DNA of 39,095 nt from Thermoanaerobaculia bacterium (GCA_027061805.1 JAMOWA010000042.1:1-39095), one strand, 5' to 3'; shown: positions 5,232 to 30,264, counted from the first letter of the stretch. Numbers and translations: made by a program. Notes: generated from the sequence alone by a model not told the origin.

Positions 5232-5570
5232 GTGCACCGCAGATACCCCCTCGCCGCGGCGGGCCTCGCACTCCTCTGGATCGCAGCAGCCCTTTCTGCC
5301 TCCCGGCCCCTCCTCCTCGTGACCACCGTGATGAGCCTCCTGGCCCCTGCCCTCCCCGCGCTGCACCGCAGGAACCCGGCCCGGCGCAGATTTCTCGTCA
5401 CCGGCCTCGTCCTCCTGGGGAGTCTCCTCGGTGGTTTCCTGGGCTTCCTGATGTGGGGTCCGGCTTCCGGAGGTGGGGCCCTGACGGCAATGGCGGTCCT
5501 GGTCGCCACGGCCGGCGTCACGGCACCCCTGATCTACGCGATGACCTTCGGCGACGGAGCAGGGTCATGA
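5232..5570 (+). CDS. Small inner-membrane protein, unknown
   Basis: About 112 residues starting at a GTG (MHRRYPLAAAGLALLWIAAALS). It has three or four hydrophobic segments: LAAAGLALLWIAAAL, LLLVTTVMSLLAPALPAL, FLVTGLVLLGSLLGGFLGFLMW and TAMAVLVATAGVTAPLIYAM. I do not recognise the family. Longer starts exist back to 5115 but would translate the mscL hairpin and give an unlikely Pro/His-rich leader. The reading frame is supported by its stop, which overlaps the ATG of the symporter gene as ATGA. That overlap suggests co-translation and possibly a small partner subunit, as in some solute symporters. No strong ribosome site is seen before the GTG. Confidence 0.6.
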   Translation: MHRRYPLAAAGLALLWIAAALSASRPLLLVTTVMSLLAPALPALHRRNPARRRFLVTGLVLLGSLLGGFLGFLMWGPASGGGALTAMAVLVATAGVTAPLIYAMTFGDGAGS

Positions 5571-6994
5571 CCGTGGGGCCGCTCGTCGCGGCAGTGGCGG
5601 CCTGCATCCTCCTGGCGGCGTGGGGCTGGACCCGGACCCGGGACGACGAGGGGTTCTTCGCCGCATCCCGCTCCGCAGGCCCGGTGCTGGCAGGGCTCGG
5701 GGGCACGGCGGCAGGGCTCTCCGCCTTTGTCTTCGTGGGCGGACCGGGGCTCATGGCCTCGCTGGGCATCGCCAGCCTGTGGATCGTCCTTTCCGCCCCC
5801 ATCACGGGAGCGCTCCAGTGCTGGGCCGTGGGTGAGCCCCTGACGCGCCTCGCCCGGACACACGGTTGCCTCACCATACCGGGCGTGGTGGCCTCCCGGT
5901 TCGGGGAGGGGGCCCCCAGGGCCCTGGCCGCCCTGGCCATCGTCGCCGGCGGCGTGGCCACCCTCGCCGTCCAGGTCAAGGGCATCGCCATCCTGGGAGG
6001 GGTCCTCACCGGACGACCGGGCTGGGTCTCCGCCGTGGTGCTGGTGGCACTCACGGCAACCTACACCGCCGCAGGCGGCATGCGTTCCGGGCTGCTGGCG
6101 GAGGCCTTCCAGGGTCTGCTCATGGGCTCTGCCGCCCTCCTTCTTGCGGGGGTGGCCCTGGGAAGGGCGGGAGGGCCGCAGGCCGCTCTGGCCACGGTGG
6201 CCACACTTCGTACCGAGCTGCTGGATCCCTTCAATGGCATCGGGGTCGCGGGCGCTGTGGGCTGGCTGCTGCTCTTCGGTCTCGGCACCTGTGCTCAGCC
6301 CCACTACCTCCAGAAGTTCCTGCTCCTGCGGGGTCCGGACTCCCTGCGGTGGATGCCGGCGGTCATGACCGTGGCCCTCCTGGCAGTGCTCACCGTCTGG
6401 TTCGGCGTGGGCCTTGGGGCGACGGCGCTCTGGCTCGACGGCGGCCTGAACGCGTCGGTTCCTGACGAGGTGGCCCCCGCCCTGCTCCGGACTCTCCCTC
6501 CGGCACTGATGGCCCTGGCAGCGGCGGCCATCGGGGCGGCGGTCATGTCCACGGCCACCTCGCTGCTGAACCTGGTGGCCGCGGCCCTGACCCGGGACCT
6601 TCCCCGTGCCATGGGACGGGGGGAGGCATCCGGCCTCCTGGCTCCGAGGCTCGCAACCGTGGGTACCGCGCTCGCGGCGCTCGGCCTGGGTCTGTCTTCG
6701 AACCGTCCCCTCGCGCTTCTGGGCGTGCTGGGCTGGGGAATGTTCACGGCGGCGCTGCTGCCCGTGATCGTCCTGGGGCTCAACTGGGAGGGGGCCACCG
6801 GGACCGGCGCCGTGGCGGCCATGCTCGTGGGGCCCGCCGTCCAGGTCGCCCTGGAGCTCGGGAGCCGTGGATCGGCCCTCCGGGCACTGGAGCCCGGCCT
6901 CGCCGGTGCCGCCATGGGGACCCTCGCCCTGGTGGGCCTCTCCCTCGCCCGCCCGGGCCGGTCCTCCGTGACTCCAGTGGAGGTGGAACCATGA
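5567..6994 (+). CDS. Sodium:solute symporter (SSS) family protein
   Basis: About 475 residues and roughly 12-13 hydrophobic segments. Matches to the SSS/LeuT-fold family include the early block FFAASRSAGPVLAGLGGTAAGLSAF, the TYTAAGGMRSGLLAEAFQGLLM block typical of these sodium symporters, and AAIGAAVMSTATSLLNLVAAALTRDL near TM8-9, where the sodium-site Ser/Thr residues sit. The substrate cannot be told; candidates for the family are proline, pantothenate, acetate or sugars. It is translationally coupled by 4-base ATGA overlaps to the small membrane protein before it and to the nth gene after it. Confidence 0.88.
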   Translation: MTVGPLVAAVAACILLAAWGWTRTRDDEGFFAASRSAGPVLAGLGGTAAGLSAFVFVGGPGLMASLGIASLWIVLSAPITGALQCWAVGEPLTRLARTHGCLTIPGVVASRFGEGAPRALAALAIVAGGVATLAVQVKGIAILGGVLTGRPGWVSAVVLVALTATYTAAGGMRSGLLAEAFQGLLMGSAALLLAGVALGRAGGPQAALATVATLRTELLDPFNGIGVAGAVGWLLLFGLGTCAQPHYLQKFLLLRGPDSLRWMPAVMTVALLAVLTVWFGVGLGATALWLDGGLNASVPDEVAPALLRTLPPALMALAAAAIGAAVMSTATSLLNLVAAALTRDLPRAMGRGEASGLLAPRLATVGTALAALGLGLSSNRPLALLGVLGWGMFTAALLPVIVLGLNWEGATGTGAVAAMLVGPAVQVALELGSRGSALRALEPGLAGAAMGTLALVGLSLARPGRSSVTPVEVEP

Positions 6995-7656
6995 AACCGT
7001 GGACCGGGGTCCAGATCCGGGAGCTCGTGGCCAGGATGGAGACCGCCAGGGCCGGCTGGCGCCCCACCACTCTCACCGAGGTGGAGCGGAGCTCCAGGTC
7101 GCCGTTCCGCCTGTTGATCTCCTGCGTCATCTCCCTGCGGACCAGGGACCAGGTGACCCACGAGGCCTCCAAACGGCTCTACGCCCTGGCGGACACCCCC
7201 GGGGGCATCGCCTCCCTGGACGAGAGCGTGATCGCGCAGGCGATCTACCCTGCCGGCTTCCACAACACCAAGGCCCGGCAGATCCGCGAGATCTGCCGGA
7301 TCCTCGAGGAGGAGCACGGGGGGGCCGTTCCCCCCTCCGAGGAGGCCCTCCTCCGCCTGCCCGGGGTGGGACGCAAGACAGCCAACCTGGTCCTCGGCCT
7401 GGGTTTCGGCATTCCGGCCATCTGCGTGGACACCCACGTCCACCGCATCTCGAACCGCCTCGGACTCGTGGACACGAGGACGCCCGAGGCCACCGAGCGC
7501 GCCCTGCAGCAGGTCCTCCCCACGGACCTCTGGGTCCCCGTCAACGACCTCATGGTGACCTTCGGCCAGAACCAGTGCCACCCCACCTCGCCGCGCTGCT
7601 CCACCTGTACCCTGGCGGACCTGTGCCCGCGGATCGGCGTCACCAGGAACCGTTGA
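6991..7656 (+). CDS. nth: Endonuclease III, DNA glycosylase/AP lyase
   Basis: This 221-residue protein removes oxidised pyrimidines and nicks the abasic site in base-excision repair. The helix-hairpin-helix LPGVGRKTANLVLG carries the catalytic Lys (K129). VDTHVHRISNRLG carries the catalytic Asp (D147). The C-terminal 4Fe-4S loop has C196, C203, C206 and C212 with the classic spacing of 6, 2 and 5. It is full length for the family. The start overlaps the symporter stop as ATGA. The pairing with a transporter is probably incidental coupling. Confidence 0.96.
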   Translation: MKPWTGVQIRELVARMETARAGWRPTTLTEVERSSRSPFRLLISCVISLRTRDQVTHEASKRLYALADTPGGIASLDESVIAQAIYPAGFHNTKARQIREICRILEEEHGGAVPPSEEALLRLPGVGRKTANLVLGLGFGIPAICVDTHVHRISNRLGLVDTRTPEATERALQQVLPTDLWVPVNDLMVTFGQNQCHPTSPRCSTCTLADLCPRIGVTRNR

Positions 7657-7665
7657 GGAGAGGTC

Positions 7666-7691
7666 CCACCAGGCGTCGCGCCGACCGGTGG
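7666..7691. terminator. Hairpin in the gap between convergent genes
   Basis: CCACC-A-GGCG-TCG-CGCC-GACC-GGTGG forms a two-part stem that fills the 37-base gap between nth and the TPR gene. There is no T-run on either side, so it is only a candidate bidirectional terminator. Confidence 0.4.
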
Positions 7692-7693
7692 CT

Positions 7694-10468
7694 TCAGTTG
7701 GCCTGGCGCTGCTGCTGGAGCCCGGCCACCCGCTGGAGCACGTCCCGGTAACCGGGATCCAGGGTGGCGACCTTGCCGAAGGCCTCGGAGGCCCCGTTCT
7801 GATCGCCGGAGGCCTCCAGTGCCGAGGCCAGGTCGTAGAGGATGGCCAGGCGGGCCTCCGTGGAAAGGTTCTCGATCTCCAGGGCCTTCCGGTACCAGGA
7901 GACGGCCTCCTCGTGCAGGCCCTGCTCCGTGTAGCACACCCCGATCATGGAGCAGGCCTCCAGCCGGAAGTCCGGATCCCTCGAGGCGATCTGGAATTCG
8001 CCGATGGCCTCGGCCAGCAGCCCCATCTCCTTGTAGGCGATCCCCAGGTTGAAGTGGGTGTCGGAGTCCTCCTCCGAGAGCTGCTCCGCCACGCCCCTCT
8101 GGAACTCCCGGAACACCTCCTCCAGGAGGGCCTCGTCCTTCCCCTGGCCCGTGGCCTCCTCGACCATGGCCTCCTCCTCGGCAAGCTCCTTCTCCAGCTC
8201 GCTGGCCAGGTCGATGTACTCCTCCTCCTCGGCGAAGAGCTTCTCCTCCGGTTCCACCTCCGGAGCCTCGGGCTCCACCAGGATGACACCCTTCTCCTTG
8301 AGCGTCAGGCGCCTCTGCGCCAGGTCGGGGTCCTCGGGGTAGGTGACCTCCAGGTCGGCGAGGATCCGTGCGGCATCCTCGTACAGCTCCTGCGCGATGA
8401 AGAAGTCGAGCTGTTCGAGCTCCGAGGAAGATGGTCCGCCGATGGTCTCCGTGATCTCCACGAGATCCGCGGCCTCCATCTCCATCGGAACCTCGGGTAT
8501 CGTGGGTGACACCACCTCGTCGGTTTCCCGGACTCCGGCAGCCACCTCCTCGGCCACCGGCTCCGCGAGATGGTCCACGACCTCCGGAGCTCCGGTTTCC
8601 GTGGTGCTCTTCGGCATCTCCACGAGATCGCCGAGCTCGGAGAAGATGATCTCGTCCACCCCCGCGTCCCCGGACCTCGCCGTACCTCCGGGTTCCGGCC
8701 GGACCTGCCCCGGCTCCTCGAAGAGCAGCTCGCTCCCGGCGAGCTCTCCCGGGGTCTCCGGCTGTGGCACCTCCTCGAGCACGGGAAACTCGCCGGACTC
8801 CGCCAGCACCTCGTCCACGTCCAGGAGAAGAATCTCCTCCTCTCCAGCCTCCTCGGCGCCCCCCCCTGCCACCATCTCCCCGGCGCCCGGTGATACGAGC
8901 CCCCTGACCCATGCGGCCTTCCGCTCGTTGCCCGTGGCCTCGTAGTGCGCCAGCAACGGCTCCGCCACGGCCGCGGCCCTGCCGGCCTCGCCCTCCTCCT
9001 CGAGAATCTCCACCAGGCGCTCCCGGGCCTCGGCGAACTCGGGATGCGTCTCCAGGATCTCCTCCAGGTGGTGGACGGCCTTGTCCACGAGCCCGTACTT
9101 GGCAAAGACGTTGGCCTCGGTGAGTCGCTCCAGGGCCTCGGGAGGGGGCTCCCCCGGAATCGGGACACCGGCCGGAGGCATGGGAATCGCCGGGGATGGT
9201 GTCGCTCCCGGGGACCGCGGTGTCCCCTCCACCGGCCTGGCCGAGCTGAGCTCCAGGTGCCTCCGACGGAACAGGTCGTTCTCGGGATCGAGATCCACGA
9301 GCTCCATGTAGAGGCGCCGCGCGGCCTCCTCGTTTCCATCCCTGAAGTGCCGGTCCGCCAGCGCGCCCTTGATGGTGATGACCATCTCGTCATCTCCACT
9401 GGCCTCGAAGGCCCGCAGGGCCCGCGCCAGGATCTCCGGATCGTCGGGCAGCACCTCCAGGAGATCCCGGGAGATCGTCTGGGCCTCCCCCAGCTCGCCC
9501 CGGCGGAGCAGGTTGTCCAGCAACGGCAGGAGCACGCTCCGGGCCCTCTCCCCGTCTCCCGCCTTCAGGCAGGCCCGTCCCACGGCCAGCTGCAGCTCGG
9601 GGTTGTCCGGGTCGCCCCGCAGCAGCTCGAACGCCTCCTCGAGCGAGAGCTCGGCCGTGGGCCGGGACGGCATGACGGCCGGAGCGGTGGTCTCCCGGGA
9701 GGGCGTCGCGGCCCCGGCAGGGGCAGCTCCACCCGCCATCTCCCGCTGCAGGGCCGTGAGGGCCGGGTCGCCGGGGACCACCCCGAGCCCGGCCTCCAGG
9801 AGCTCCGCAGCGGCGGCTCCCTTGCCGGCCTCGGCGAGGGCCTGGCACACCGGCACCAGGAAGCTGCAGGAGGGTGGCCTTGCCTCCAGGACGTGCCGCG
9901 CCAGCCGCTCCGCCTCGTCGAGCTTGGACCGTCCCAGGAGAACCGAGATGAGACGGTTGAAGGTCTCCACGGCCTCGTCGAGCTCACCTGCCTGGACGAG
10001 GGCATCGGCCAGCCGGAGCTGGACCATGTGGTTGCCGGGATCCAGCTCGGCCAGCTTCCGCTGGACGTGGAGAGCCCTCTCCATGTCGCCGTTCCTGGCG
10101 TGCCACTCGGCGAGGATCTCGTACTGGCTCCTCGCCTCCACCATGAGGCCCTGCTGGACATAGAGCTCGCCAAGCTTCTCGAAGATCTCGAGACGCTGCG
10201 GCATCAGCCTGTTGATCTTCTTGAGGATCGCGATGGCCTTGTTGGCAAAGCCATCCTGGCTGAAGTGGTCGGCCAGGCGCTCGTAGAGCTCGACGGCCTC
10301 CTCCACCCTGCCCAGGCGGCCGTAGAGATCCCCGATCCTGTTGATGGCGACGGCGTCGTTCGGATTGACCTTGAGGAGTTTCTTGTACTCGCGGATTGCC
10401 TGCTCAACCTTGCCCTTCTGGACAAGCTTTTCCGCTTCCCGCCGGACCCTGTCGCGATTGATGGCCAT
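7694..10468 (-). CDS. Large tetratricopeptide-repeat (TPR) protein
   Basis: This 924-residue soluble protein has no signal peptide or membrane span. Helical TPR units fill the N-terminal third (for example AIREYKKLLKVNPNDAVAINRIGDLY, AVELYERLADHF and the following units). A very acidic, low-complexity Glu/Val/Pro central region lies at about 500-730, with TPRs again at the C-terminus (DTHFNLGIAYKEMGLLAEAI, AVSWYRKALEIENL). Such proteins scaffold complexes; partners are unknown. It starts 38 bases after rnhB on the same strand, so it may share the rplS promoter. The acidic middle probably is a flexible spacer between two TPR superhelices. Confidence 0.85.
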   Translation of the reverse strand: MAINRDRVRREAEKLVQKGKVEQAIREYKKLLKVNPNDAVAINRIGDLYGRLGRVEEAVELYERLADHFSQDGFANKAIAILKKINRLMPQRLEIFEKLGELYVQQGLMVEARSQYEILAEWHARNGDMERALHVQRKLAELDPGNHMVQLRLADALVQAGELDEAVETFNRLISVLLGRSKLDEAERLARHVLEARPPSCSFLVPVCQALAEAGKGAAAAELLEAGLGVVPGDPALTALQREMAGGAAPAGAATPSRETTAPAVMPSRPTAELSLEEAFELLRGDPDNPELQLAVGRACLKAGDGERARSVLLPLLDNLLRRGELGEAQTISRDLLEVLPDDPEILARALRAFEASGDDEMVITIKGALADRHFRDGNEEAARRLYMELVDLDPENDLFRRRHLELSSARPVEGTPRSPGATPSPAIPMPPAGVPIPGEPPPEALERLTEANVFAKYGLVDKAVHHLEEILETHPEFAEARERLVEILEEEGEAGRAAAVAEPLLAHYEATGNERKAAWVRGLVSPGAGEMVAGGGAEEAGEEEILLLDVDEVLAESGEFPVLEEVPQPETPGELAGSELLFEEPGQVRPEPGGTARSGDAGVDEIIFSELGDLVEMPKSTTETGAPEVVDHLAEPVAEEVAAGVRETDEVVSPTIPEVPMEMEAADLVEITETIGGPSSSELEQLDFFIAQELYEDAARILADLEVTYPEDPDLAQRRLTLKEKGVILVEPEAPEVEPEEKLFAEEEEYIDLASELEKELAEEEAMVEEATGQGKDEALLEEVFREFQRGVAEQLSEEDSDTHFNLGIAYKEMGLLAEAIGEFQIASRDPDFRLEACSMIGVCYTEQGLHEEAVSWYRKALEIENLSTEARLAILYDLASALEASGDQNGASEAFGKVATLDPGYRDVLQRVAGLQQQRQAN

Positions 10469-20734: not shown

Positions 20735-23713
20735 TCAGCTCTCTCCGGGAAGGATGACGCCCCGCCCGGTCCGGCCGTCCACGAGCACCCGGAGCGGCTG
20801 CTCCAGGCGGATCCGGCGGATCACGCCGTCCATGGCCGTCTCCACGGGTGGAAGCCCCATGAACCACTCCCAGTCCACCAGGCCCGCTCCACGGCCCTCG
20901 TGGACGGTGAAGTACGGGATCCCGAAGCACGAGAGGTTGTGGAAGAAGTGGGAGCCCTGGGACGGCTCCACCTCCAGGTCGGAAAAGTCGGTCTCGACGA
21001 TCACCCGTCCCGAGGAGATCTGCGACCACGCCACGGGAATCCCCAGCCACTGGTCCCTGGAGCCCCACCGGCCGGGCCCCACCAGGAGGAACGGGCGGTC
21101 CTCGGAACGGAGCTGCTCGTTGAAACGGGAGATCACCGTGGCCGCCTGCGGCGTCATGGACCGGTCGAAGTGCCGGGAGTCCACGATCACCACGTCGCGG
21201 ATCTCCTCGCGGACGCCGTGCCCGAGAACCTGCTCGGAGTACACCACCGCCTGCTCCGCGAGGTCGCTGGTGACCTCCACCTGGTGGGCGAACTGCTCCA
21301 CCACCATGGGCCGGACCTGGAGCACGTGCAGCGTCGGGGCCTCGGACTCCTGGGCACCGAGCTCCACGGCGAACTCGATCTCCACCGGGGTGCCCATCCC
21401 CTCGGACACCAGGCCCAGAAGGCGGTCCAGGACCTCGGGCAGGGGGAAGAAGAGCCCCTTCAGCAGCGGCCCGAAGGTGATCAGCGGCGTACCCCCCGGT
21501 TCCAGCCCGCTGGAGATGGTGTCGTTGGCCGGGTTGTAGGTGGAGGCGATGAGGTTGACCGCGGGGTCGCCCACCGCCTCGGTGATCTCCAGGTGCAGGA
21601 GGTTGGCGTCGGGGTCCATGCCGGGGATCACGTCGTCGTTGGCGAGGTCCAGGGCGTAGAAGCGCCTCTGGGCGTTGCGGAGGATGTCCTTGACCGCCGA
21701 GAACTGGGGCAGGACCCTCGGGTACCGGGGACAGAAGCGGAGCGCCTCGAAGCCCTCCACCACCGACTTGCCCAGTCCGAGGGCCACGAGGGCCACGCCG
21801 TCCTCCGGCTTCATGTCCCGGAAGGGGTAGAAGTTGTAGGAGGAGGCGACCCCCGAAAACGTGGGGTAGAACCTGTCCCCGTGGGCGGAGCCCACCAGGG
21901 TCTGGAGCAGCACCGCCATGCGCTCCTCCTCCGCCCGGTGCGGGGTGTTCTCCAGGTACCGCCGTGCGCCCACCTGGAAGGTGGAGGCGTAGACCACCTT
22001 GATGGCCTCCAGCAGCTGGGCCAGGCGGATGTCCAGGGAGGGATGGTTGTTGGGAAGCATCACCGTCGTGTAGACGCCGGCAAAGGGCTGGTAGAGCGAA
22101 TCCTCCAGGATGCTCGACGAGCGGACGGCGATGGGGGCCGTGACCGTCTCCAGGAAGGCGGCGAGCTCCGCCCGCCGCTCGTGGTTGAAGCGTCCGCCGC
22201 GGAAGACGTCCAGGACCTCGGGATCCGTGAGCCCTCCGGCGTCCCGGACCATGCCCCCCAGCTCGTTCTCCTCCAGGAACTCCTCGAAGACATCGCTGGC
22301 CACGACCACCGTCTGGGGAACCTCCACGTTCACCCCGGGAACCAGCGAGTGCTCCCGGGCGAGGAGCTTGAGGACGAACGCCAGTCCCCTCCCCTTGCCG
22401 CCGAGCGAGCCGGAGCCGATCTTGGCGTAGGCCACGAGATCGTCGAACCGCTCGGCATCGAAGTCCGCGATCACGTGACGCTGGATCTCCCGGAGGTAGC
22501 TGGCCAGGGTGGAGGTGAGGAACTCCCGGAGCGCCCTGACCGACTCGAACTCGCCCACCTGTCGCGGCCGGAGCAGGGTGGCCAGCTCGAACTCCGTCCG
22601 TGCCTTCAGCCACGCGGAGAAGTGGTTTCGCCCGGCGTGGTAGATCAGCGACTCGTCCGGAACGGTGGGCAGCACCCGCAGAAGCTCCCGCATGTCGCGG
22701 GCCCGGGCCACCTCGGTGCCGTCCGCGAGCTTGAACACGAAGTCCCCGAACCCGAAGTTGTCCAGGATGTACCGCCTGAGATCCTCGAGCAGCGTGGGCG
22801 ACTGCTTGTGGAGGAAGGCCGCCCCCACGTTGCCGGCCTCCTTCTCGTGGCGCTGGTCGGTGGACTGGAGGAGGATCGGCACGTCGGCGTCCCTGTGCCG
22901 CACCCTCCGGGCCAGCTCGATGCCCGCGAGCGGATCCACCTTCCCCTCCCGGGGAAAGCTGACGTCCGAGATGATCCCCAGCAGGTTCCCGGAGTACCGT
23001 TCGAAGAGCTCCCAGGCCTCCTCGAAGGTCTGGGCCAGGAGGATCTTGGGCCGTGCCCGGATCCTCAGGAGCCGGTGGGACAGGTTGAGCCCCTCGGCCA
23101 TCAGGCGGGAGGTCTGGGTGGTCACCTCGGTGTAGATGTGGGGCAGGTAGGCCGAGTAGAAGCGGACCTCGTCCTCCACCAGGATGATGGCCTGGACCCC
23201 GCCCTCCAGCACGTCGTGGTCGGCGTTCCGCCGGTCCTCCACCTGCTTGATCATGGCCAGCAGGGCCTTCACGTCCCCCTGCCACAGGAAGAGCCAGTCC
23301 ACCTCCCCCGTGTTCTGGAGCCGCTCGAGGTTCGGCAGGTCCCAGGCGTGGGCCGCCAGGACCCCGATGGGAAGGTCGGCGTTGTCCTTCTTGATCTTCC
23401 GGGCGAAGGTCCTCAGGTCCGTGTCGGGGAGCCGCGGCGTGGCCACCACCAGGTCGAAGGAACGCTTGCCCAGCATCTCGAAGGCCTCGGCGGCGTCGTG
23501 GGCCCTGGTGAACCTGGGGGCGTACCGGAGGTTCAGGTCCAGGTTCCGGTACTCCTCGAAGATGAGCTCGGTGAGCTGCCCGTCCTCCTCGAGGACGAAG
23601 GCGTCGTAGCGGGAGGCGACCAGGAGGATCTCCCGTACCCGTCTGGACATGAGAGAGGAGAACTCCTCGGTCCTCATGCCGTATCTGCTTCGGAGCTCGA
23701 GATGCTGCGCCAT
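20735..23713 (-). CDS. Two-receiver PEP-synthase-like ATP-grasp protein
   Basis: 992 residues. A degenerate receiver-like domain (about 28-160) is followed by a canonical receiver (about 175-312) with VEDE (180-181), the phospho-acceptor Asp D250 in ISDVSFP, and K303 in LHKQS. From about 430 comes the PEP-synthase/PPDK N-terminal ATP-grasp (GSGSLGGKGRG 433-443, IAVRSSS near 530-534, LYQPFAGVYTT). The phospho-His swivelling domain and the PEP-binding barrel are absent. A C-terminal block with VGPGRWGSRDQWLG and PSQGSHFFHNL is known from similar uncharacterised proteins. I infer a phosphorelay-controlled ATP-dependent phosphotransferase of unknown substrate. AAAGGA precedes the ATG at 23713. 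Confidence 0.85.
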   Translation of the reverse strand: MAQHLELRSRYGMRTEEFSSLMSRRVREILLVASRYDAFVLEEDGQLTELIFEEYRNLDLNLRYAPRFTRAHDAAEAFEMLGKRSFDLVVATPRLPDTDLRTFARKIKKDNADLPIGVLAAHAWDLPNLERLQNTGEVDWLFLWQGDVKALLAMIKQVEDRRNADHDVLEGGVQAIILVEDEVRFYSAYLPHIYTEVTTQTSRLMAEGLNLSHRLLRIRARPKILLAQTFEEAWELFERYSGNLLGIISDVSFPREGKVDPLAGIELARRVRHRDADVPILLQSTDQRHEKEAGNVGAAFLHKQSPTLLEDLRRYILDNFGFGDFVFKLADGTEVARARDMRELLRVLPTVPDESLIYHAGRNHFSAWLKARTEFELATLLRPRQVGEFESVRALREFLTSTLASYLREIQRHVIADFDAERFDDLVAYAKIGSGSLGGKGRGLAFVLKLLAREHSLVPGVNVEVPQTVVVASDVFEEFLEENELGGMVRDAGGLTDPEVLDVFRGGRFNHERRAELAAFLETVTAPIAVRSSSILEDSLYQPFAGVYTTVMLPNNHPSLDIRLAQLLEAIKVVYASTFQVGARRYLENTPHRAEEERMAVLLQTLVGSAHGDRFYPTFSGVASSYNFYPFRDMKPEDGVALVALGLGKSVVEGFEALRFCPRYPRVLPQFSAVKDILRNAQRRFYALDLANDDVIPGMDPDANLLHLEITEAVGDPAVNLIASTYNPANDTISSGLEPGGTPLITFGPLLKGLFFPLPEVLDRLLGLVSEGMGTPVEIEFAVELGAQESEAPTLHVLQVRPMVVEQFAHQVEVTSDLAEQAVVYSEQVLGHGVREEIRDVVIVDSRHFDRSMTPQAATVISRFNEQLRSEDRPFLLVGPGRWGSRDQWLGIPVAWSQISSGRVIVETDFSDLEVEPSQGSHFFHNLSCFGIPYFTVHEGRGAGLVDWEWFMGLPPVETAMDGVIRRIRLEQPLRVLVDGRTGRGVILPGES

Positions 23714-23809
23714 CTGCGGGTCCTTTCCACGTGACCTTAGCAAATCCCGGGTCCCGCGGGGCTGACGGTGCCTCGCAGACGGGCTATCCTCGGCCAGGAG
23801 GGGCACGCC

Positions 23810-24802
23810 ATGGACCATGACGGAAAGAACGGGGACACCCCCTACGGCCGGATCGGCAGGCGGGAGCTGCTCAGGACGTGGGCGCCCCCCGCCGCTGCGG
23901 CCCTCGCGCTCGGCGGTACCGGCTGGATCTTCAGGGACCGGCGGGGCCGTCACCACACCTCCGCCACCACGGCTGCTCCGCGCCCCCGGGACTGGAGGCG
24001 CGTGGCGACGGCCCTCCCCCTTGCCGTGTCCCGGGGGAAGGGGCCCGCGGGCAATCTCAGGGCCGCCCTGGAGGCTGTGGGCGGCATCCGGGCCCACGTG
24101 GGGGCCGGAGAGACCGTACTCGTCAAGCCCAACTGCGCCTGGGACCGCACCCCGGAGCAGGCGGCCAACACCGATCCCGAGCTGGTGGCCGAGCTCGTGA
24201 GGCTCTGCCTCGAGGCTGGCGCCGCGAAGGTGATCGTGGCCGACAACACCTGCCACGACCCCCGGCGCTCCTTCACCAGGTCCGGCATCGGCCCGGCGGC
24301 ACGGGCCGCCGGTGCGGAGGTCCTCCACCAGGACACGGCGGGCTCGGCCGAGCTCGACCTGGGGGGCAGCGTCCTGGGCGTCTGGAGGGTCCTGCATCCC
24401 CTGGCCGAGGCGGACCGCGTGATCAACGTCCCCGTGGTGAAGCACCACTCGCTGGCCAGGGCGACCCTGGGGATGAAGAACTGGTTCGGCGTGCTGCTCG
24501 GCCCCCGCCCGCGCCTCCACCAGCGGATCGACCAGTCGGTGGCCGAGCTCGGGGTGGCACTGAAGCCCACGCTCACGGTCATGGACGCCACACGGATCCT
24601 CACGGGTGGCGGCCCCACGGGCGGCTCCCTGGACCTGGTCCGGGCCGAGGACGCCGTGGCCGTGTCCCTGGACCCCGTGGCGGCCGATGCCTGGGGCGCC
24701 CACCTGCTCGGCCTCGCCCCGGAGGACCTCCCCTTCCTCGCCATCGCCCGGCGCCTGGGAGCCGGCACGCCCGACTGGCGCTCCCTCCTCGTGGAGGTCT
24801 GA
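23810..24802 (+). CDS. Tat-exported DUF362 domain protein
   Basis: About 330 residues. The N-terminus carries a twin-arginine signal (GRRELLRTWAPPAAAALALGG), which implies export as a folded protein by the TatA/TatC encoded at 13.9-15.0 kb. The rest is a DUF362 domain (VLVKPNCAWDRTPEQAANT, VIVADNTCHDPRRSF, NVPVVKHHSLARATLGMKNWFG), found in redox-associated proteins of uncertain function. AGGAGG precedes the ATG. The next gene begins at the base after its stop, so the two are probably co-translated. Confidence 0.87.
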   Translation: MDHDGKNGDTPYGRIGRRELLRTWAPPAAAALALGGTGWIFRDRRGRHHTSATTAAPRPRDWRRVATALPLAVSRGKGPAGNLRAALEAVGGIRAHVGAGETVLVKPNCAWDRTPEQAANTDPELVAELVRLCLEAGAAKVIVADNTCHDPRRSFTRSGIGPAARAAGAEVLHQDTAGSAELDLGGSVLGVWRVLHPLAEADRVINVPVVKHHSLARATLGMKNWFGVLLGPRPRLHQRIDQSVAELGVALKPTLTVMDATRILTGGGPTGGSLDLVRAEDAVAVSLDPVAADAWGAHLLGLAPEDLPFLAIARRLGAGTPDWRSLLVEV

Positions 24803-26347
24803 GTGCACCTCCGGGCACGGCACCTCCGGATCGCGAGCCAGGCGCTGTTCCTCCTGGTCTTCCTCGCCTCCTTCTGGGCCGTGGCCGCACAGGGTTTCCG
24901 GGGCCTCACCGCCACGGTGCTCCTGGCCCTCGACCCCCTGACCGCCACGGGCTCGCTCCTGGCGGACTGGACGGTGCCGCGGTGGGCGTGGCTGGGCCTC
25001 GGCGTGCTGGCGCTCTCGGCCCTCGCCGGGAGGTTCTTCTGCGGGTGGGTGTGCCCCCTGGGCACCCTTCAGCAGCTGGCCTCGTGGTTGGCCGCACCGC
25101 GCGGGAGGCTCCGCAGGAACCGGAACCGGTACCGGCCCTGGTTCGCCGCGAAGTACCTGGTCCTGACCTTCCTGCTGGCCTGGGCCGCGGGCGGGGCGCT
25201 CCACACCGGGTGGCTGGCACCCCTTCCGCTCCTGGAACGTGCCGTGGCCGGCGGCCTCCGCCCACTCTGGCACGGCGGAGCCTCCCCGGCGGGATGGGTC
25301 TCCCTCTTCCTGGTGGGGCTGATCCTCGTGCTCTCCACGTGGATCCCCAGGCTGTACTGCAGGGCCGTGTGCCCCGCCGGGGCGCTCATGGGCCTCCTCG
25401 CCCGCGCGGCGCCCCTCCGCATCCGCAGGAGCGACACCACCTGCACGGGGTGCGAGCTCTGTCTCATGGCGTGCCAGGGCGCGGACGAGCCGCTGACGGA
25501 GCACCGGGTCTCGGAGTGCCACGTCTGCCTGAACTGCCTCCCGGCCTGCCCCGAGAGCGGCCTCTCCTGGGGCCTCGCCCCCGTGCCCTCCAGGCCACCG
25601 TCGCCGCCGCTCGACGTGGGCCGGCGCCGCTTTCTCGTCACCGCCGCGGCGGGGCTGGCCGCGGCGCCCGTGGCGGCCGTCTCCGGCGGGGGCCGGGAGG
25701 CCTCGGCCGCGGATGCAATCCGCCCACCGGGCGCCCTGGCCGAGGACCAGTTCCTGGCACGGTGCATCACCTGCGGGGCCTGCGTGGCCTCCTGCCCCAC
25801 CGGCGCCCTCGTGTCGGACCTGGGGCGCACGGGGCTCGACGGGCTGTTCACCCCGGTCCTCGTTCCCCGCCGGGGGTGGTGCGAGCCCTCCTGCACCCGC
25901 TGCGGCGAGGTCTGCCCCACCGGCGCCCTGGAGCTCCTGTCACCCCGGGAGAAGCAGGCCATCGGAGGCCCCGCCGACGTGGTCATCGGAACCGCCTTCG
26001 TCGACCGCGGACGGTGCCTCCCCTGGGCCATGGCGGTCCCCTGCATCGTCTGCGAGGAGATGTGCCCCACCTCGCCCAAGGCCATCTGGCTGGAGGAGGT
26101 CACGGCCACCGACCGGAAGGGTCGCGCCGTCACCCTCCAGAGGCCCCACCTGGATCCCGAGCTGTGCACGGGATGCGGCCTGTGCGAAAACCGGTGCCCT
26201 GTGGGCGAGGAGGCAGCCATCCGCGTCTTCTCGGTGGGTGAGAGCCGCTCCGCCACGAACCGGCTCCTCCGGCAGCTCCCGCCCCCGAACAGGCCGGAAC
26301 CGCCGGTCCCCGGGCCTGCGGGGGAGCCCTCGGGACCCCGGGGATGA
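24803..26347 (+). CDS. NapH-like/NapG-like polyferredoxin fusion with internal Tat signal
   Basis: 514 residues in two halves. The first (1-255) is NapH-like: about four membrane helices, CGWVCPLG (C80, C84) and CRAVCPAG (C186, C190) at the membrane face, and a cytoplasmic 2x4Fe-4S ferredoxin (C214-C224, C239-C249). The second (about 270-475) begins with an internal twin-arginine segment (GRRRFLVTAAAGLAAAP, RRR at 274-276) and carries four 4Fe-4S sites (C321-C331, C360-C371, C405-C421, C455-C465), as in NapG/MauM. NapH and NapG are usually separate genes. Electrons could pass from the cytoplasm through the membrane to periplasmic clusters. The start is GTG, and it is coupled to the VWFA gene by ATGA. 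Confidence 0.88.
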   Translation: MHLRARHLRIASQALFLLVFLASFWAVAAQGFRGLTATVLLALDPLTATGSLLADWTVPRWAWLGLGVLALSALAGRFFCGWVCPLGTLQQLASWLAAPRGRLRRNRNRYRPWFAAKYLVLTFLLAWAAGGALHTGWLAPLPLLERAVAGGLRPLWHGGASPAGWVSLFLVGLILVLSTWIPRLYCRAVCPAGALMGLLARAAPLRIRRSDTTCTGCELCLMACQGADEPLTEHRVSECHVCLNCLPACPESGLSWGLAPVPSRPPSPPLDVGRRRFLVTAAAGLAAAPVAAVSGGGREASAADAIRPPGALAEDQFLARCITCGACVASCPTGALVSDLGRTGLDGLFTPVLVPRRGWCEPSCTRCGEVCPTGALELLSPREKQAIGGPADVVIGTAFVDRGRCLPWAMAVPCIVCEEMCPTSPKAIWLEEVTATDRKGRAVTLQRPHLDPELCTGCGLCENRCPVGEEAAIRVFSVGESRSATNRLLRQLPPPNRPEPPVPGPAGEPSGPRG

Positions 26348-27333
26348 CACCCATGCAGGTCCTCCGCTCTCTCCTCATCCCCACCACCCGGCTGGCGCTG
26401 GCCCTGGCGCTGGGCGCGTCCGCCACGGCCGCGGTGGCAGGCGCCCAGGAGGCCAGGTTCTCCGGCTCGGTGGAGATGAACAACGTCACGGTGGAGGTGG
26501 AGGTCACGCGCCGGGGAAAACCGGTCACGGGGCTGCGCAAGGAGGACTTCCAGGTCCTCGAGGACGGCCAGGAGCGGGAGATCACCAACTTCGCCTGGAT
26601 GGGTGGGGGCGCCGCGGTGGAGGGCACCACCACGGCCGGCGGGACGTCCCCCTCCCCCACCGCGGCCCGGGAACCCCACGTGGTCCTCCTCTTCGACGTC
26701 AACGGCCTCGAGAGGCCCCGGCTGGTCCGCGCGGTGGAAGCTGCCCGCCAGTGGGTGGACCGCCACGCCGGCCAGGGTATCCTGTGGTCGGTGGCGGTGG
26801 TGGGCACCAGACCGGTGGTCCTCGCACCCTTCACTGCAGACCTCGAAAAGATCCGGGTGGCGCTGGACGCCGGCACCTCCCTGTCCCTGGCGCTCCTCAC
26901 CGCACCACCCGGTGCCACACAGGTCCTCCCCATCGTGGTGAGAACGAACCTCGAGAAGATGGAGCGGTTCTACCCGTGGACCACGAACCTCTTCGGTGGC
27001 AACAGCCTCGAGGTGCGCCCCGGGGGCCGGTTCCTTCCCGGGGAGGAGCTGGTCTTCTTCTTCGTCGTGATCAACCCGCCCCGCCCCGCCGGAGCCCCTC
27101 CCGCTACCGACGTGAAGGTCGCCGTCCTCCGGGACGGCCAGCCGGTGGCCCGGGGCCAGTGGCTGGACGAGGACCTGTCGATGATGGCTCCCCGGACCTT
27201 CCTCTTCGGGTCCTCGTTTCCCCTCGCCGCTCTGGACGGCGAGGGACCCCACTCCCTCCGTTTCCGGGTCGAGATCCACGGCTCCGAGGTGGCCCGGACC
27301 CTGACGCTCCCCCTTCTCGTGGGAAACCCGTGA
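26344..27333 (+). CDS. VWFA-related (acidobacterial type) exported protein
   Basis: 329 residues with a signal peptide (LALALALGASATAAVAGAQ). The domain resembles the VWFA-related family described from Acidobacteria: the N-terminal beta block VTRRGKPVTGLRKEDFQVLEDGQ with the typical LRKEDFxVLEDG motif, then HVVLLFDVNGLERPRL. The usual metal-site DxSxS is not seen (DVNGL), so metal-dependent ligand binding is doubtful. It overlaps the polyferredoxin stop as ATGA, and is the last gene of the redox operon. A role as an exported binding partner of that complex is inferred from position only. Confidence 0.85.
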   Translation: MTPMQVLRSLLIPTTRLALALALGASATAAVAGAQEARFSGSVEMNNVTVEVEVTRRGKPVTGLRKEDFQVLEDGQEREITNFAWMGGGAAVEGTTTAGGTSPSPTAAREPHVVLLFDVNGLERPRLVRAVEAARQWVDRHAGQGILWSVAVVGTRPVVLAPFTADLEKIRVALDAGTSLSLALLTAPPGATQVLPIVVRTNLEKMERFYPWTTNLFGGNSLEVRPGGRFLPGEELVFFFVVINPPRPAGAPPATDVKVAVLRDGQPVARGQWLDEDLSMMAPRTFLFGSSFPLAALDGEGPHSLRFRVEIHGSEVARTLTLPLLVGNP

Positions 27334-27379: not shown

Positions 27380-28069
27380 ATGGAAACGCACGGAGACGTC
27401 CTGCTCGTCGGCCACGAATCATCACTCCTGGAGACGGTCGTCCCCCTGCTGCGCAGGTCGGGTCATGCCGTCCACAGGTCCCCCGCCACGTCCGCCTGCG
27501 TGGAGCTCTTCCAGGCGACCCCGTTCCAGCTCCTGGTGATGGAACATCCCCTCTCGGATCTCGACACCGGGGGGGTGGTGGCCGCTCTCAGGACAAGGAG
27601 CTCGGCCAGCCGGTCGGCCGGCCTGGTGGTGGTGGCTCCGGACGATGAGGCCGGACCCCTCGTGACCATGCTGGGACGGGGCGTCAACCGGCTGGTCCGC
27701 CGTTCCGACGCGGCCGAGCTCATGGTCGCCGTGGCCGATCTCCTGGCGGTGGCGCCGCGCCGCGCCCTGCGGACCGTGGTGCAACTCGAGGTCACCCTCG
27801 GGGGCCGGCCGAACCGGACCCTCGTCCAGACCGTCAACCTGTCGCGATCGGGCATGCTGATCCGGGGCACCGGCCGGCACTTCCCCGTGGGGTCCACGAT
27901 CCGCTTCGAGCTCATCCTCCCCGGCCAGCCCACGCCGATCCGGGGCATCGCCGAGGTGGTGCGCCACGCCGAGAGGCGTCGTGAACGGATCGACGGCTTC
28001 GGGGTGAGGTTCCAGAAGCTCGAGAGTGACGGTGAACCGAGGCTGGACCAGTACCTGACGCAGCGCTGA
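27380..28069 (+). CDS. Degenerate receiver-PilZ protein
   Basis: 229 residues. Residues 1-120 have a response-regulator fold (VLLVGHESSLLETVV, FQLLVMEHPLSDLD, GLVVVAPDD), but the acidic pair is GH (11-12) and the phospho-acceptor is Glu (E55), so phosphorylation is unlikely. A PilZ domain follows, with RRALR (RxxxR) and NLSRSG (N/DxSxxG), the c-di-GMP-binding residues. It therefore looks like a c-di-GMP-controlled pseudo-receiver. It lies 46 bases after the VWFA gene and converges with the export gene wza-like at 28086. Confidence 0.85.
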   Translation: METHGDVLLVGHESSLLETVVPLLRRSGHAVHRSPATSACVELFQATPFQLLVMEHPLSDLDTGGVVAALRTRSSASRSAGLVVVAPDDEAGPLVTMLGRGVNRLVRRSDAAELMVAVADLLAVAPRRALRTVVQLEVTLGGRPNRTLVQTVNLSRSGMLIRGTGRHFPVGSTIRFELILPGQPTPIRGIAEVVRHAERRRERIDGFGVRFQKLESDGEPRLDQYLTQR

Positions 28070-28085: not shown

Positions 28086-28949
28086 TCAGAACACGCGGCG
28101 CTTGACGACGATCACGTCACGGGCCTGGATCTCCGGGTCCCTCTCCTTCCCATGCCGGATCCTCCGCAGGTTGAAGGTCAGGACACCGCCTTCGCCCTCA
28201 CCCGCACTGCCGCGGTGGATCTCCACCTCGCTGGACGCAAACTTGGCCAGGCCGCCGGCCTTCGACAGGGCCTGCATCAGCGTCTCACCGGGGTTGAGCT
28301 CGTACTGCCCGGGGCTGGCCACCTCCCCCGTGACGAAATAGAGGGCCTTGGGGGGCACGGAGATGACGTCGCCTGCCTGGAGCACCACGTCCTCGATCCC
28401 GCCAGTGAGGAGCTCCTTGCGCGGGATGAGCCGGACCGTCATCCTGGCGTTCTTTCCCTCCCCCATCCGGCGGCGCAATTCGATGGACCGCCCGGCACCG
28501 GACCTGAGCCCCCCGGCGTCCGCCAGGAGCTGCGTCAGGGTCGTGCGTCCCTCCAGGTAGTAGGTTCCGGGCTTCCCAACCTCGCCGATGAGCGTCACCG
28601 GCTTGGAGCGGTACTCGGCCACCTCGACCTGGAGCTGGACATCGACGTAGTAGTCCTTCTCGAGGGCAGCCTCGAGCTTCCGGGCCACCTCCGCCGTGGT
28701 CAGCCCCGCCACGGCGACCCGGTCCAGGTAGGGGTAGGTGATGGTTCCGTCGTCCTTCACGGGAAACTTCCCGCTGATCTCGTCGTGACGGTAGACCTGG
28801 ACATCGAGCACGTCTCCAGGCCCGATGGTGTACCCGGCACTGGCGGTGGAACCTCCCTCCTCCTGGGCGAGGCCGGACACCGGGACCAGGAGGAGAAGCA
28901 CGGTGAGCAGACGGAACAGAGAACCTCTCATGAAGGAGGAGACTAGCAC
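28086..28949 (-). CDS. Wza-type polysaccharide export protein (PES-SLBB)
   Basis: 287 residues with an N-terminal signal (LFRLLTVLLLLVPVSGLAQ). The PES domain has the family motif YTIGPGDVLDVQVYRHDE and DGTITYPYLDRVAVAGLT. Two SLBB-like units follow (PVTLIGEVGKPGTYYLEGR, YFVTGEVASPGQYELNPGE). Such proteins form the outer-membrane channel for capsule or exopolysaccharide. No lipobox Cys is seen. The GTG start at 28949 has GAGGG upstream; an ATG at 28931 is preceded by CCTCC rather than a site. It lies 22 bases after the barrel gene. Confidence 0.93.
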   Translation of the reverse strand: MLVSSFMRGSLFRLLTVLLLLVPVSGLAQEEGGSTASAGYTIGPGDVLDVQVYRHDEISGKFPVKDDGTITYPYLDRVAVAGLTTAEVARKLEAALEKDYYVDVQLQVEVAEYRSKPVTLIGEVGKPGTYYLEGRTTLTQLLADAGGLRSGAGRSIELRRRMGEGKNARMTVRLIPRKELLTGGIEDVVLQAGDVISVPPKALYFVTGEVASPGQYELNPGETLMQALSKAGGLAKFASSEVEIHRGSAGEGEGGVLTFNLRRIRHGKERDPEIQARDVIVVKRRVF

Positions 28950-28971
28950 ATTCCCGCCCTCGGAAAGGGCC

Positions 28972-30216
28972 TCAGAACCCCCATGTCAGGCCGATGAGGA
29001 ACATGTTGGCCTTGTAGCTGTACCGGTAGAAGGAGTCCCTCTTCTGGTAGGCGTAGCTTCCCCGGAGCGAGAGGGACGGCATCAGCCGGTATCCGATTCC
29101 CAACCCGAAGTCGGTGATGTCATCCGAGCGGGCCGAGCCCTCGATGGGATCCGGGCGATCGTACTCGTTGTTCTGGTACCTGGCCCGGATGTGGCCGAAG
29201 AGCCGCTCCCGTTGCAGCCGGTAGATCAGGCCGAGCCCCTTGGCGATGTAGTGGGTCTGATCCACGTAGTTGGACGGAAAATCCTGCCGCAGGAGATCCA
29301 GCGACAGGACAGAGCCGTGGGCGAGCGTCCACGACAGCGAGCCCCGGAGCACCAGCCCGGAGGCATCGTCCGCCCTGGGGTATCCCGGCACGTCCTCGTA
29401 ACTGGTGGTCCGCCAGCCCACCTCCACGGCACTCGAGAACACTGGGCTCACCTTTCCGTCGAAGGCCACCGTGACCTCGTCGGAGCTGGACTTGCGGTAG
29501 CGGTCAGCGCTCCCCTTGGGCTCGAACGTCTCGTGACGGTACATGAAGTTCGAGGTAAGGGTCGGGCTCAGCTGATGCACCCAGCCCATGCCACCCCTGA
29601 GTCGATCGTAGTCATAGAAATAGGCCCGGTCCCGGTCGTCGTATCGGATGGTCACGTAGGACATATCCGCGGAGAGCCCGTTGGTGGGCGAGAACCAGTA
29701 TTGCAGATCGGCACCGACATCGTTCTTGTTGAACTGCTGGTCGCCGAAGATCAGCTCGCCGCCGGGATCCACCTCCCGCGTCTCCAGGTTTCCCGAAACG
29801 AAGCGGTAATCGAAGCCGAGCTTGACGCCCGAGGAGAACTCGAAATCACCGGAAAAATCGACGAAATGGGACCACTTATTCTCGAGATCATACTTCGCAT
29901 AATCCCGGTACTGAGGCGTGTAGGAAAAGCGGAGGTAGGATTCGTAGACGGGAAGCTCGAACATCAGTCGGGCCCTGGCCAGCCAGACATTGGAGCTCAC
30001 CTCGTTGCCCGGCGTGAAGAAGATGTTGTCCCGGTACTCCCAGGTCAGGTCCACTGCGGGGCTGAAGATGAATGGACCCAGGGCGATCCCCTCGTGCTGG
30101 CCGAGGGGAATCGTTCCCGACGGCTCGTCGAGCGTCTGGCCTGACTGGGCCAGGCATGGGACACTCGCAAGGACACTCCCCAGGACGACAGCAATGACAA
30201 GACTTCTACGAATCAT
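28972..30216 (-). CDS. Outer-membrane beta-barrel protein of the polysaccharide export unit
   Basis: About 414 residues: signal peptide (LVIAVVLGSVLASVPCLAQ), then long alternating aromatic strands (YLRFSYTPQYRDYAKYD, LSADMSYVTIRYDDRDRAY) and a terminal LIGLTWGF with the C-terminal Phe. It fits the BBP2-type beta-barrels found beside exopolysaccharide genes in many Gram-negatives. AAGGAG precedes the ATG at 30216 by six bases. It has its own promoter at 30265-30293, and the export gene follows in the same direction. Confidence 0.87.
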   Translation of the reverse strand: MIRRSLVIAVVLGSVLASVPCLAQSGQTLDEPSGTIPLGQHEGIALGPFIFSPAVDLTWEYRDNIFFTPGNEVSSNVWLARARLMFELPVYESYLRFSYTPQYRDYAKYDLENKWSHFVDFSGDFEFSSGVKLGFDYRFVSGNLETREVDPGGELIFGDQQFNKNDVGADLQYWFSPTNGLSADMSYVTIRYDDRDRAYFYDYDRLRGGMGWVHQLSPTLTSNFMYRHETFEPKGSADRYRKSSSDEVTVAFDGKVSPVFSSAVEVGWRTTSYEDVPGYPRADDASGLVLRGSLSWTLAHGSVLSLDLLRQDFPSNYVDQTHYIAKGLGLIYRLQRERLFGHIRARYQNNEYDRPDPIEGSARSDDITDFGLGIGYRLMPSLSLRGSYAYQKRDSFYRYSYKANMFLIGLTWGF

Positions 30217-30264
30217 TTTCGACTCCTTCACGGAACTTCTCGTGAGTGAATCATGTCGTTATTG

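Follow-up and report, generated by a model that had tools for sequence, protein, structure and literature searches.

The closest described relatives of the system reported here are the NapH-NapG fusion proteins, or "polyferredoxins," which were described by Tooke et al. (2017; PMC5449189) as widely distributed. The passages of that paper on the MLMS-1 protein Q1NSB0 count three inner and four outer 4Fe-4S clusters, and those on protein export present reporter fusions by which the part of a homologue that follows its twin-arginine (RR) motif was found to be exported by the twin-arginine translocation (Tat) system. LarA, in which Lys184 and His200 hold the nickel-pincer (NPN) cofactor (PMC11770544, PMC9283937), is a further point of comparison, as it is placed in the same Pfam clan as DUF362 (PMC11770544). 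The families DUF362, MEMO, AMMECR1, and the radical S-adenosylmethionine (SAM) protein AmrS, the last three being the components of the AmmeMemoRadiSam system, are all widespread and without an agreed function, and MEMO1 and AMMECR1 have human relatives. Here we describe a pair of adjacent genes, DUF362a and the polyferredoxin gene PFD, in a 39,095-nucleotide stretch of DNA from a Thermoanaerobaculia bacterium (GCA_027061805.1 JAMOWA010000042.1:1-39095; the whole stretch is hereafter called the window). On balance, we favor the view that DUF362a and PFD form a two-gene electron-transfer module that serves exported redox enzymes, an exported AmmeMemoRadiSam system among them.

Three plus-strand open reading frames (ORFs) stand in series in the window at 23810-24802, 24803-26347, and 26344-27333, and they encode DUF362a, PFD, and a VWFA-related protein, respectively. 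An earlier note on this DNA described them as three joined genes with zero to four bases between stops and starts. They are indeed on the same strand, and the GTG start of PFD abuts the stop of DUF362a with zero bases between; PFD and the VWFA-related gene, however, are not separated by a gap, the ATG of the latter overlapping the stop of the former (ATGA). The features of the pair are listed below.

23810..24802, plus strand: DUF362a, Tat-signal protein of 330 aa (PF04015, Pfam E 2e-47; RR17-18), with the predicted fold of the LarA N-terminal domain (model pLDDT 92.6)
23858..23863, plus strand: twin-arginine codons R17 R18 of the DUF362a signal, invariant in alignment A1
24446..24520, plus strand: stretch with the invariant H213, K223, and H237 of DUF362a, proposed equivalents of LarA His174, Lys184, and His200
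24803..26347, plus strand: PFD, NapH-NapG fusion of 514 aa with a GTG start and 28 Cys (halves matched by NCBIfam; a single ORF in 79 of the 80 loci; model pTM 0.88)
24803..25582, plus strand: NapH-like half, with four hydrophobic segments, two CxxxC pairs, two 4-Cys sets, and three possible clusters (hydropathy, Cys positions, TIGR02163)
25622..25627, plus strand: internal twin-arginine R274 R275 ahead of the fifth transmembrane segment (277-295), predicted to be Tat-dependent (conservation, hydropathy, and the homologue data in passages of PMC5449189)
25703..26272, plus strand: NapG-like half, with four 4-Cys sets, predicted to lie outside the cytoplasm (PRK09476, TIGR00397; invariant Cys)

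PFD residues 9-255 match NapH (TIGR02163) and residues 271-478 match NapG (PRK09476), with RR at residues 274-275 between the two halves, as the earlier note had read them. The halves score far below the NCBIfam cut-offs for NapG and NapH (91 against 178.85, 85.9 against 213.05, 107.2 against 269, and 71.1 against 234 bits). In an alignment of 67 relatives, R275 is invariant and R274 is conserved in >90%. PFD has exactly 28 cysteines, 27 of which are invariant and one near-invariant in the same alignment, and of these the NapH half carries two 4-Cys sets and the NapG half four, whereas the membrane part holds two CxxxC pairs. Judged from these positions, the cysteines are enough for seven 4Fe-4S clusters, predicted as three cytoplasmic and four external, which agrees with the earlier proposal of clusters on both sides of the membrane but not with its count of six. 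Hydropathy places transmembrane segments at 10-28, 66-84, 115-133, and 163-181 and, after the internal RR, at 277-295. The structure model of PFD, a confident one (pLDDT 87.9), had no match in the PDB by fold at E 0.001 or better, and VIA comparison of the model returned ferredoxin domains only (best Z 7.8); because the fold searches gave ferredoxin domains only, no solved relative was found for the membrane half. PFD shares with the family of Tooke et al. (2017) the fused halves, the five transmembrane segments with the RR motif, and the three-plus-four clusters. As the passages in question describe both this architecture and Tat export, the fusion is of a known kind, and Tat-dependent placement of the outer domain, shown by others on the homologue (PMC5449189), would be expected for PFD by analogy.

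A scan of 84,980 species genomes yielded 80 PFD loci, distributed among Acidobacteriota, Zixibacteria, Gemmatimonadota, Calditrichota, Gammaproteobacteria, Magnetococcales, several deltaproteobacterial lines, Bacteroidota, Ignavibacteria, Nitrospirae, and others. The NapH-NapG fusion is a single open frame in 79 of these loci, so the in-frame fusion is conserved across genomes of many phyla; the frame is interrupted only in L010, where a sequencing frameshift may be responsible. A second PFD copy at G234:C551:14980-16636 has its halves in separate frames, for which a natural split and a frameshift are both possible. A DUF362 gene lies directly upstream of PFD on the same strand in 70 of the 80 loci, downstream in 5, and about 2.8 kb away in 1, and none was seen near PFD in the remaining 4, most of which are cut near a contig end.

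The VWFA-related gene, in contrast, adjoins the pair in the window only and in none of the other fetched loci, those of same-family relatives included. In the relative L005, the same flanks are found on both sides (PPDK-like, PilZ, EpsE, and porin genes) without a VWFA gene. The conserved unit is the DUF362a-PFD pair and not the trio, and the VWFA-related gene is a local neighbor; the earlier note had named a lack of synteny of the trio as grounds for refutation, and this applies to the VWFA-related gene. The stop/start overlap in the window could be read as the mark of a genuine operon of three genes with the VWFA-related protein as a working subunit, but the absence of the gene beside the pair in all other fetched loci, those of same-family relatives and of a syntenic relative among them, has largely refuted this already and leaves it scarcely credible; as a subunit, the protein is rejected. 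It is weakly related to the acidobacterial VWFA family TIGR03436, over its N-terminal part only, at 73.0 bits, which is below the cut-off of 81.25. The protein has a signal-like start, and by eye the DxSxS metal-site motif is missing from it.

The earlier note had advised looking for recurring neighbors, and this yielded, besides the constant DUF362, what we regard as the strongest clue, which the note itself had missed. Clustering of the neighbors revealed a recurrent set made up of a signal-peptide-bearing MEMO-AMMECR1 fusion, another DUF362 protein (DUF362b), and a Tat-signal AmrS. Counted as the MEMO-AMMECR1 fusion and/or AmrS inside the fetched flanks, this exported AmmeMemoRadiSam system is near the pair in 21 of the 80 loci; these belong to two or more phyla and differ in gene order. 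In Acidobacteriota, the genes are colinear and downstream, as in L150 (DUF362a, PFD, MEMO-AMMECR1, DUF362b, and AmrS in that order); in Zixibacteria, they are mostly convergent and downstream, and in L042 they are upstream of the pair. The window's own genome also carries them, consecutively on the plus strand at L147 (G000:C13) 5435-9086, as MEMO-AMMECR1, a Tat-signal DUF362b, and a Tat-signal AmrS, and this operon exceeds the cut-offs for TIGR04336 (MEMO, 213 against 26 bits), TIGR04335 (AMMECR1, 150 against 99 bits), and TIGR04337 (radical SAM, 357 against 220 bits).

The two systems also co-occur. Each of the 39 PFD genomes queried, which come from various phyla, has an AmrS relative, and in about half of them it is of the Tat type. 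In a phylum sample of 297 genomes, exported-type AmrS, defined by a score of 500 bits or more with profile A3, was found in 52 of 82 genomes with PFD and in 7 of 215 without it (odds ratio 51, Fisher p 7e-29, uncorrected for phylogeny), and by a hand count from the genome family labels, PFD occurs in 25 of the 26 families that have exported-type AmrS. In an AmrS tree of 89 sequences, 32 of the 33 rows flagged for a Tat signal fall in one clade of 37 (support 97/87), and the flag of the outlier, L132, is probably false. Full-length AmrS proteins of the Tat type retain an intact CxxxCxxC radical SAM motif. Two further genes were noted. A divergent class of AmrS relatives is represented in the window's genome at G000:C9:5959-6975 (290 bits to TIGR04337), away from the exported operon, and a large membrane protein weakly related to polyamine aminopropyltransferases lies between PFD and AmrS at L041:7686-9818 and at equivalent positions in other Zixibacteria.

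An aldo/keto reductase with a Tat-like signal adjoins the pair in L009, L011, L031, L035, L046, L048, and L078 and directly follows DUF362a-PFD in L159, L160, and L161; most of these reductases have cysteine sets near the C-terminus. In two of the three genomes behind L159-L161 (G075 and G084), the TIGR04337 search found no AmrS scoring as Tat type. Together with the aldo/keto reductase linkage, this argues that the pair supplies exported redox enzymes in general and is not tied to a single system. Profile searches of the window proteins found no known terminal reductase in the operon, as had been noted earlier. Given that the fusion is in frame across phyla, that DUF362 is its constant companion, and that no classical reductase adjoins it, "electron-export module" is a fair description of the locus, whereas "unrecognised," the other half of the earlier wording, does not hold for a fusion family that passages of Tooke et al. 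(2017) describe.

DUF362a is a clear member of PF04015 (162.3 bits against a gathering score of 24), and RR17-18 of its signal, together with about two dozen other residues, are invariant among the 68 relatives of alignment A1. The protein contains no iron-sulfur, heme, or flavin motif, and its sole well-conserved cysteine is the single C133. With one conserved Cys and no cluster motif, DUF362a as a ferredoxin-like acceptor is rejected, and the earlier suggestion that DUF362a is itself the electron-accepting partner of PFD finds no support in a protein that lacks an iron-sulfur motif and has a LarA-like predicted fold. By fold, the model resembles the N-terminal domain of racemases of the LarA type (VIA Z 17.5, 207 residues, root-mean-square deviation 3.0), with the next fold far lower at Z 5.6. 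Because phmmer and profile searches against PDB chains gave no match by sequence, the relation to LarA is visible by fold only. Global hhalign of DUF362a and LarA gave nothing useful; local hhalign pairs H213 and K223 with LarA His174 and Lys184, weakly (E 0.056). The His-to-Lys spacing is 10 in both proteins, and the offset of the VIA ranges, which is a range-level match, fits H213, K223, and H237 onto LarA His174, Lys184, and His200; K223 and H237 are thereby candidates for the Lys tether and the His nickel ligand. We conclude from the model that a LarA-like pocket is kept in DUF362a as a candidate cofactor pocket. The clan of the LarA superfamily (DUF2088) and DUF362 is CL0471. The NPN cofactor requires larC, as LarC inserts the nickel, and larC is absent from the window's genome and from G003, G004, G005, G007, G008, G009, and G013, among which G008 and G009 are 99-100% complete. 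That DUF362a is an ordinary NPN enzyme is weakened by the lack of larC in several carriers.

In the reading that we favor, PFD would span the membrane with four helices inserted by Sec and a fifth inserted by Tat; the three 4Fe-4S clusters on the cytoplasmic side would take electrons from quinol or cytoplasmic ferredoxin and the four outer clusters would hand them on, and there the Tat-exported DUF362a, with its LarA-like cofactor pocket, would probably act as adaptor or enzyme. The commonest client would be the exported AmmeMemoRadiSam system, with its MEMO-AMMECR1 fusion, second DUF362, and Tat-signal AmrS, and in some lineages the client would be the aldo/keto reductase with a Tat-like signal. 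The pair, the fusion, the signals, the cysteines, the linkage, and the co-occurrence are established from the sequences; the outward flow of electrons, their source, the contact with AmrS, and the chemistry of the reaction are what we infer in this proposal. A stronger version, that the whole AmmeMemoRadiSam system, its radical SAM enzyme included, works outside the cytoplasm in a form reduced by PFD, with LarA-like DUF362 proteins as cofactor-bearing partners, seems to us possible but rather doubtful; we know of no characterized system with exported radical chemistry of this kind. Several points weigh against these proposals. For a radical SAM cluster, a very low potential and SAM are both required, neither of which is, to our knowledge, available outside the cytoplasm. 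Menaquinol alone is too weak a reductant for such a cluster; the electrons may therefore come from cytoplasmic ferredoxin, or the cluster of AmrS may be put to a different use outside the cell. A redox role for DUF362a is only presumed, as it has no iron-sulfur motif. The pair and the exported AmmeMemoRadiSam genes are on different contigs in the window's lineage, and shared ancestry was left uncorrected in the Fisher test. At the threshold used, exported-type AmrS is missing from 30 of the 82 PFD genomes and present in 7 genomes that lack PFD, so that there is no strict dependence in either direction.

The genomes that have the pair without exported-type AmrS could also be accommodated by a self-contained respiratory enzyme in which PFD is the quinol dehydrogenase and DUF362a the terminal reductase of an external acceptor. 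DUF362a is the only constant neighbor of PFD, and its LarA-like pocket is well formed, with invariant His and Lys. For a terminal reductase, however, the lack of any iron-sulfur, heme, or flavin motif is difficult to reconcile, and such an enzyme would leave the linkage to AmmeMemoRadiSam and aldo/keto reductase genes and the co-occurrence unexplained; we therefore regard it as unlikely. The direction of flow could also be the reverse, with exported enzymes oxidizing an external substrate and PFD passing the electrons to the quinone pool or a cytoplasmic acceptor. The wire is symmetric in principle and its sequence fixes no direction, and both LarA-like proteins and aldo/keto reductases act on alcohols, which give up electrons when oxidized. 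Radical SAM clusters, on the other hand, need reduction rather than oxidation, and characterized NapGH moves electrons outward, a role cited in passages of PMC5449189, so that inward flow appears improbable to about the same degree. That DUF362a is a nickel-pincer enzyme outside the cytoplasm, be it a racemase or an oxidoreductase, which PFD maintains in active form, would agree with the LarA N-domain fold (Z 17.5), with the invariance of the residues that fit LarA His174, Lys184, and His200, and with the clan common to DUF362 and LarA (PMC11770544). The window's genome, like at least seven others with the pair, has no LarC, which makes this a good deal less probable than either of the preceding alternatives.

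Around the three ORFs, the window contains a long minus-strand coding region at 20735-23720, labeled PPDK-like by eye, which adjoins the pair and is also found beside it in L005. A PilZ-domain protein is encoded at 27380-28069 and adjoins exopolysaccharide export genes at 28086-30231 on the minus strand, which encode a Poly_export/SLBB protein and an EpsL-like outer-membrane barrel.

The link between the pair and AmmeMemoRadiSam suggests that bacteria export electrons to drive unusual chemistry outside the cytoplasm. An exported and fused lineage of MEMO, AMMECR1, AmrS, and DUF362 that is tied to a transmembrane iron-sulfur wire gives the chemistry of these families a concrete and testable setting. 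If AmrS does work outside the cytoplasm, how SAM and low-potential electrons get there becomes the question. In the open-access literature, a scope that makes for weak evidence, no paper was found that joins DUF362 with NapGH or with AmmeMemoRadiSam; as far as that literature tells, the pair and its link to the exported AmmeMemoRadiSam system appear to be new.

Compared with NapG and NapH of the periplasmic nitrate reductase (TIGR00397/PRK09476 and TIGR02163/PRK09477), PFD has common domain kinds and matching cluster motifs, and their quinol dehydrogenase role outside the cytoplasm is a further likeness; NapG and NapH are, however, two separate proteins rather than a single chain, and no nap genes lie beside the pair. 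Q1NSB0, by its description in the relevant passages of Tooke et al. (2017; PMC5449189), is like PFD a NapH-NapG fusion with five transmembrane segments, RR directly before the fifth, and three-plus-four clusters. The window protein is shorter than Q1NSB0, and those passages mention neither DUF362, nor AmmeMemoRadiSam, nor a client enzyme. DUF362a resembles the lactate racemase LarA in its N-terminal fold and probably in the residues at the NPN-binding positions, but it has no LarA C-terminal domain and no apparent second catalytic His, it carries a Tat export signal, and several of its carriers are without larC. The linked operon scores above cut-off for each of the AmmeMemoRadiSam component families (TIGR04335, TIGR04336, and TIGR04337) and differs from that system in that its MEMO and AMMECR1 are fused and carry a signal peptide, its AmrS has a Tat signal, and it is accompanied by DUF362 proteins and a polyferredoxin.

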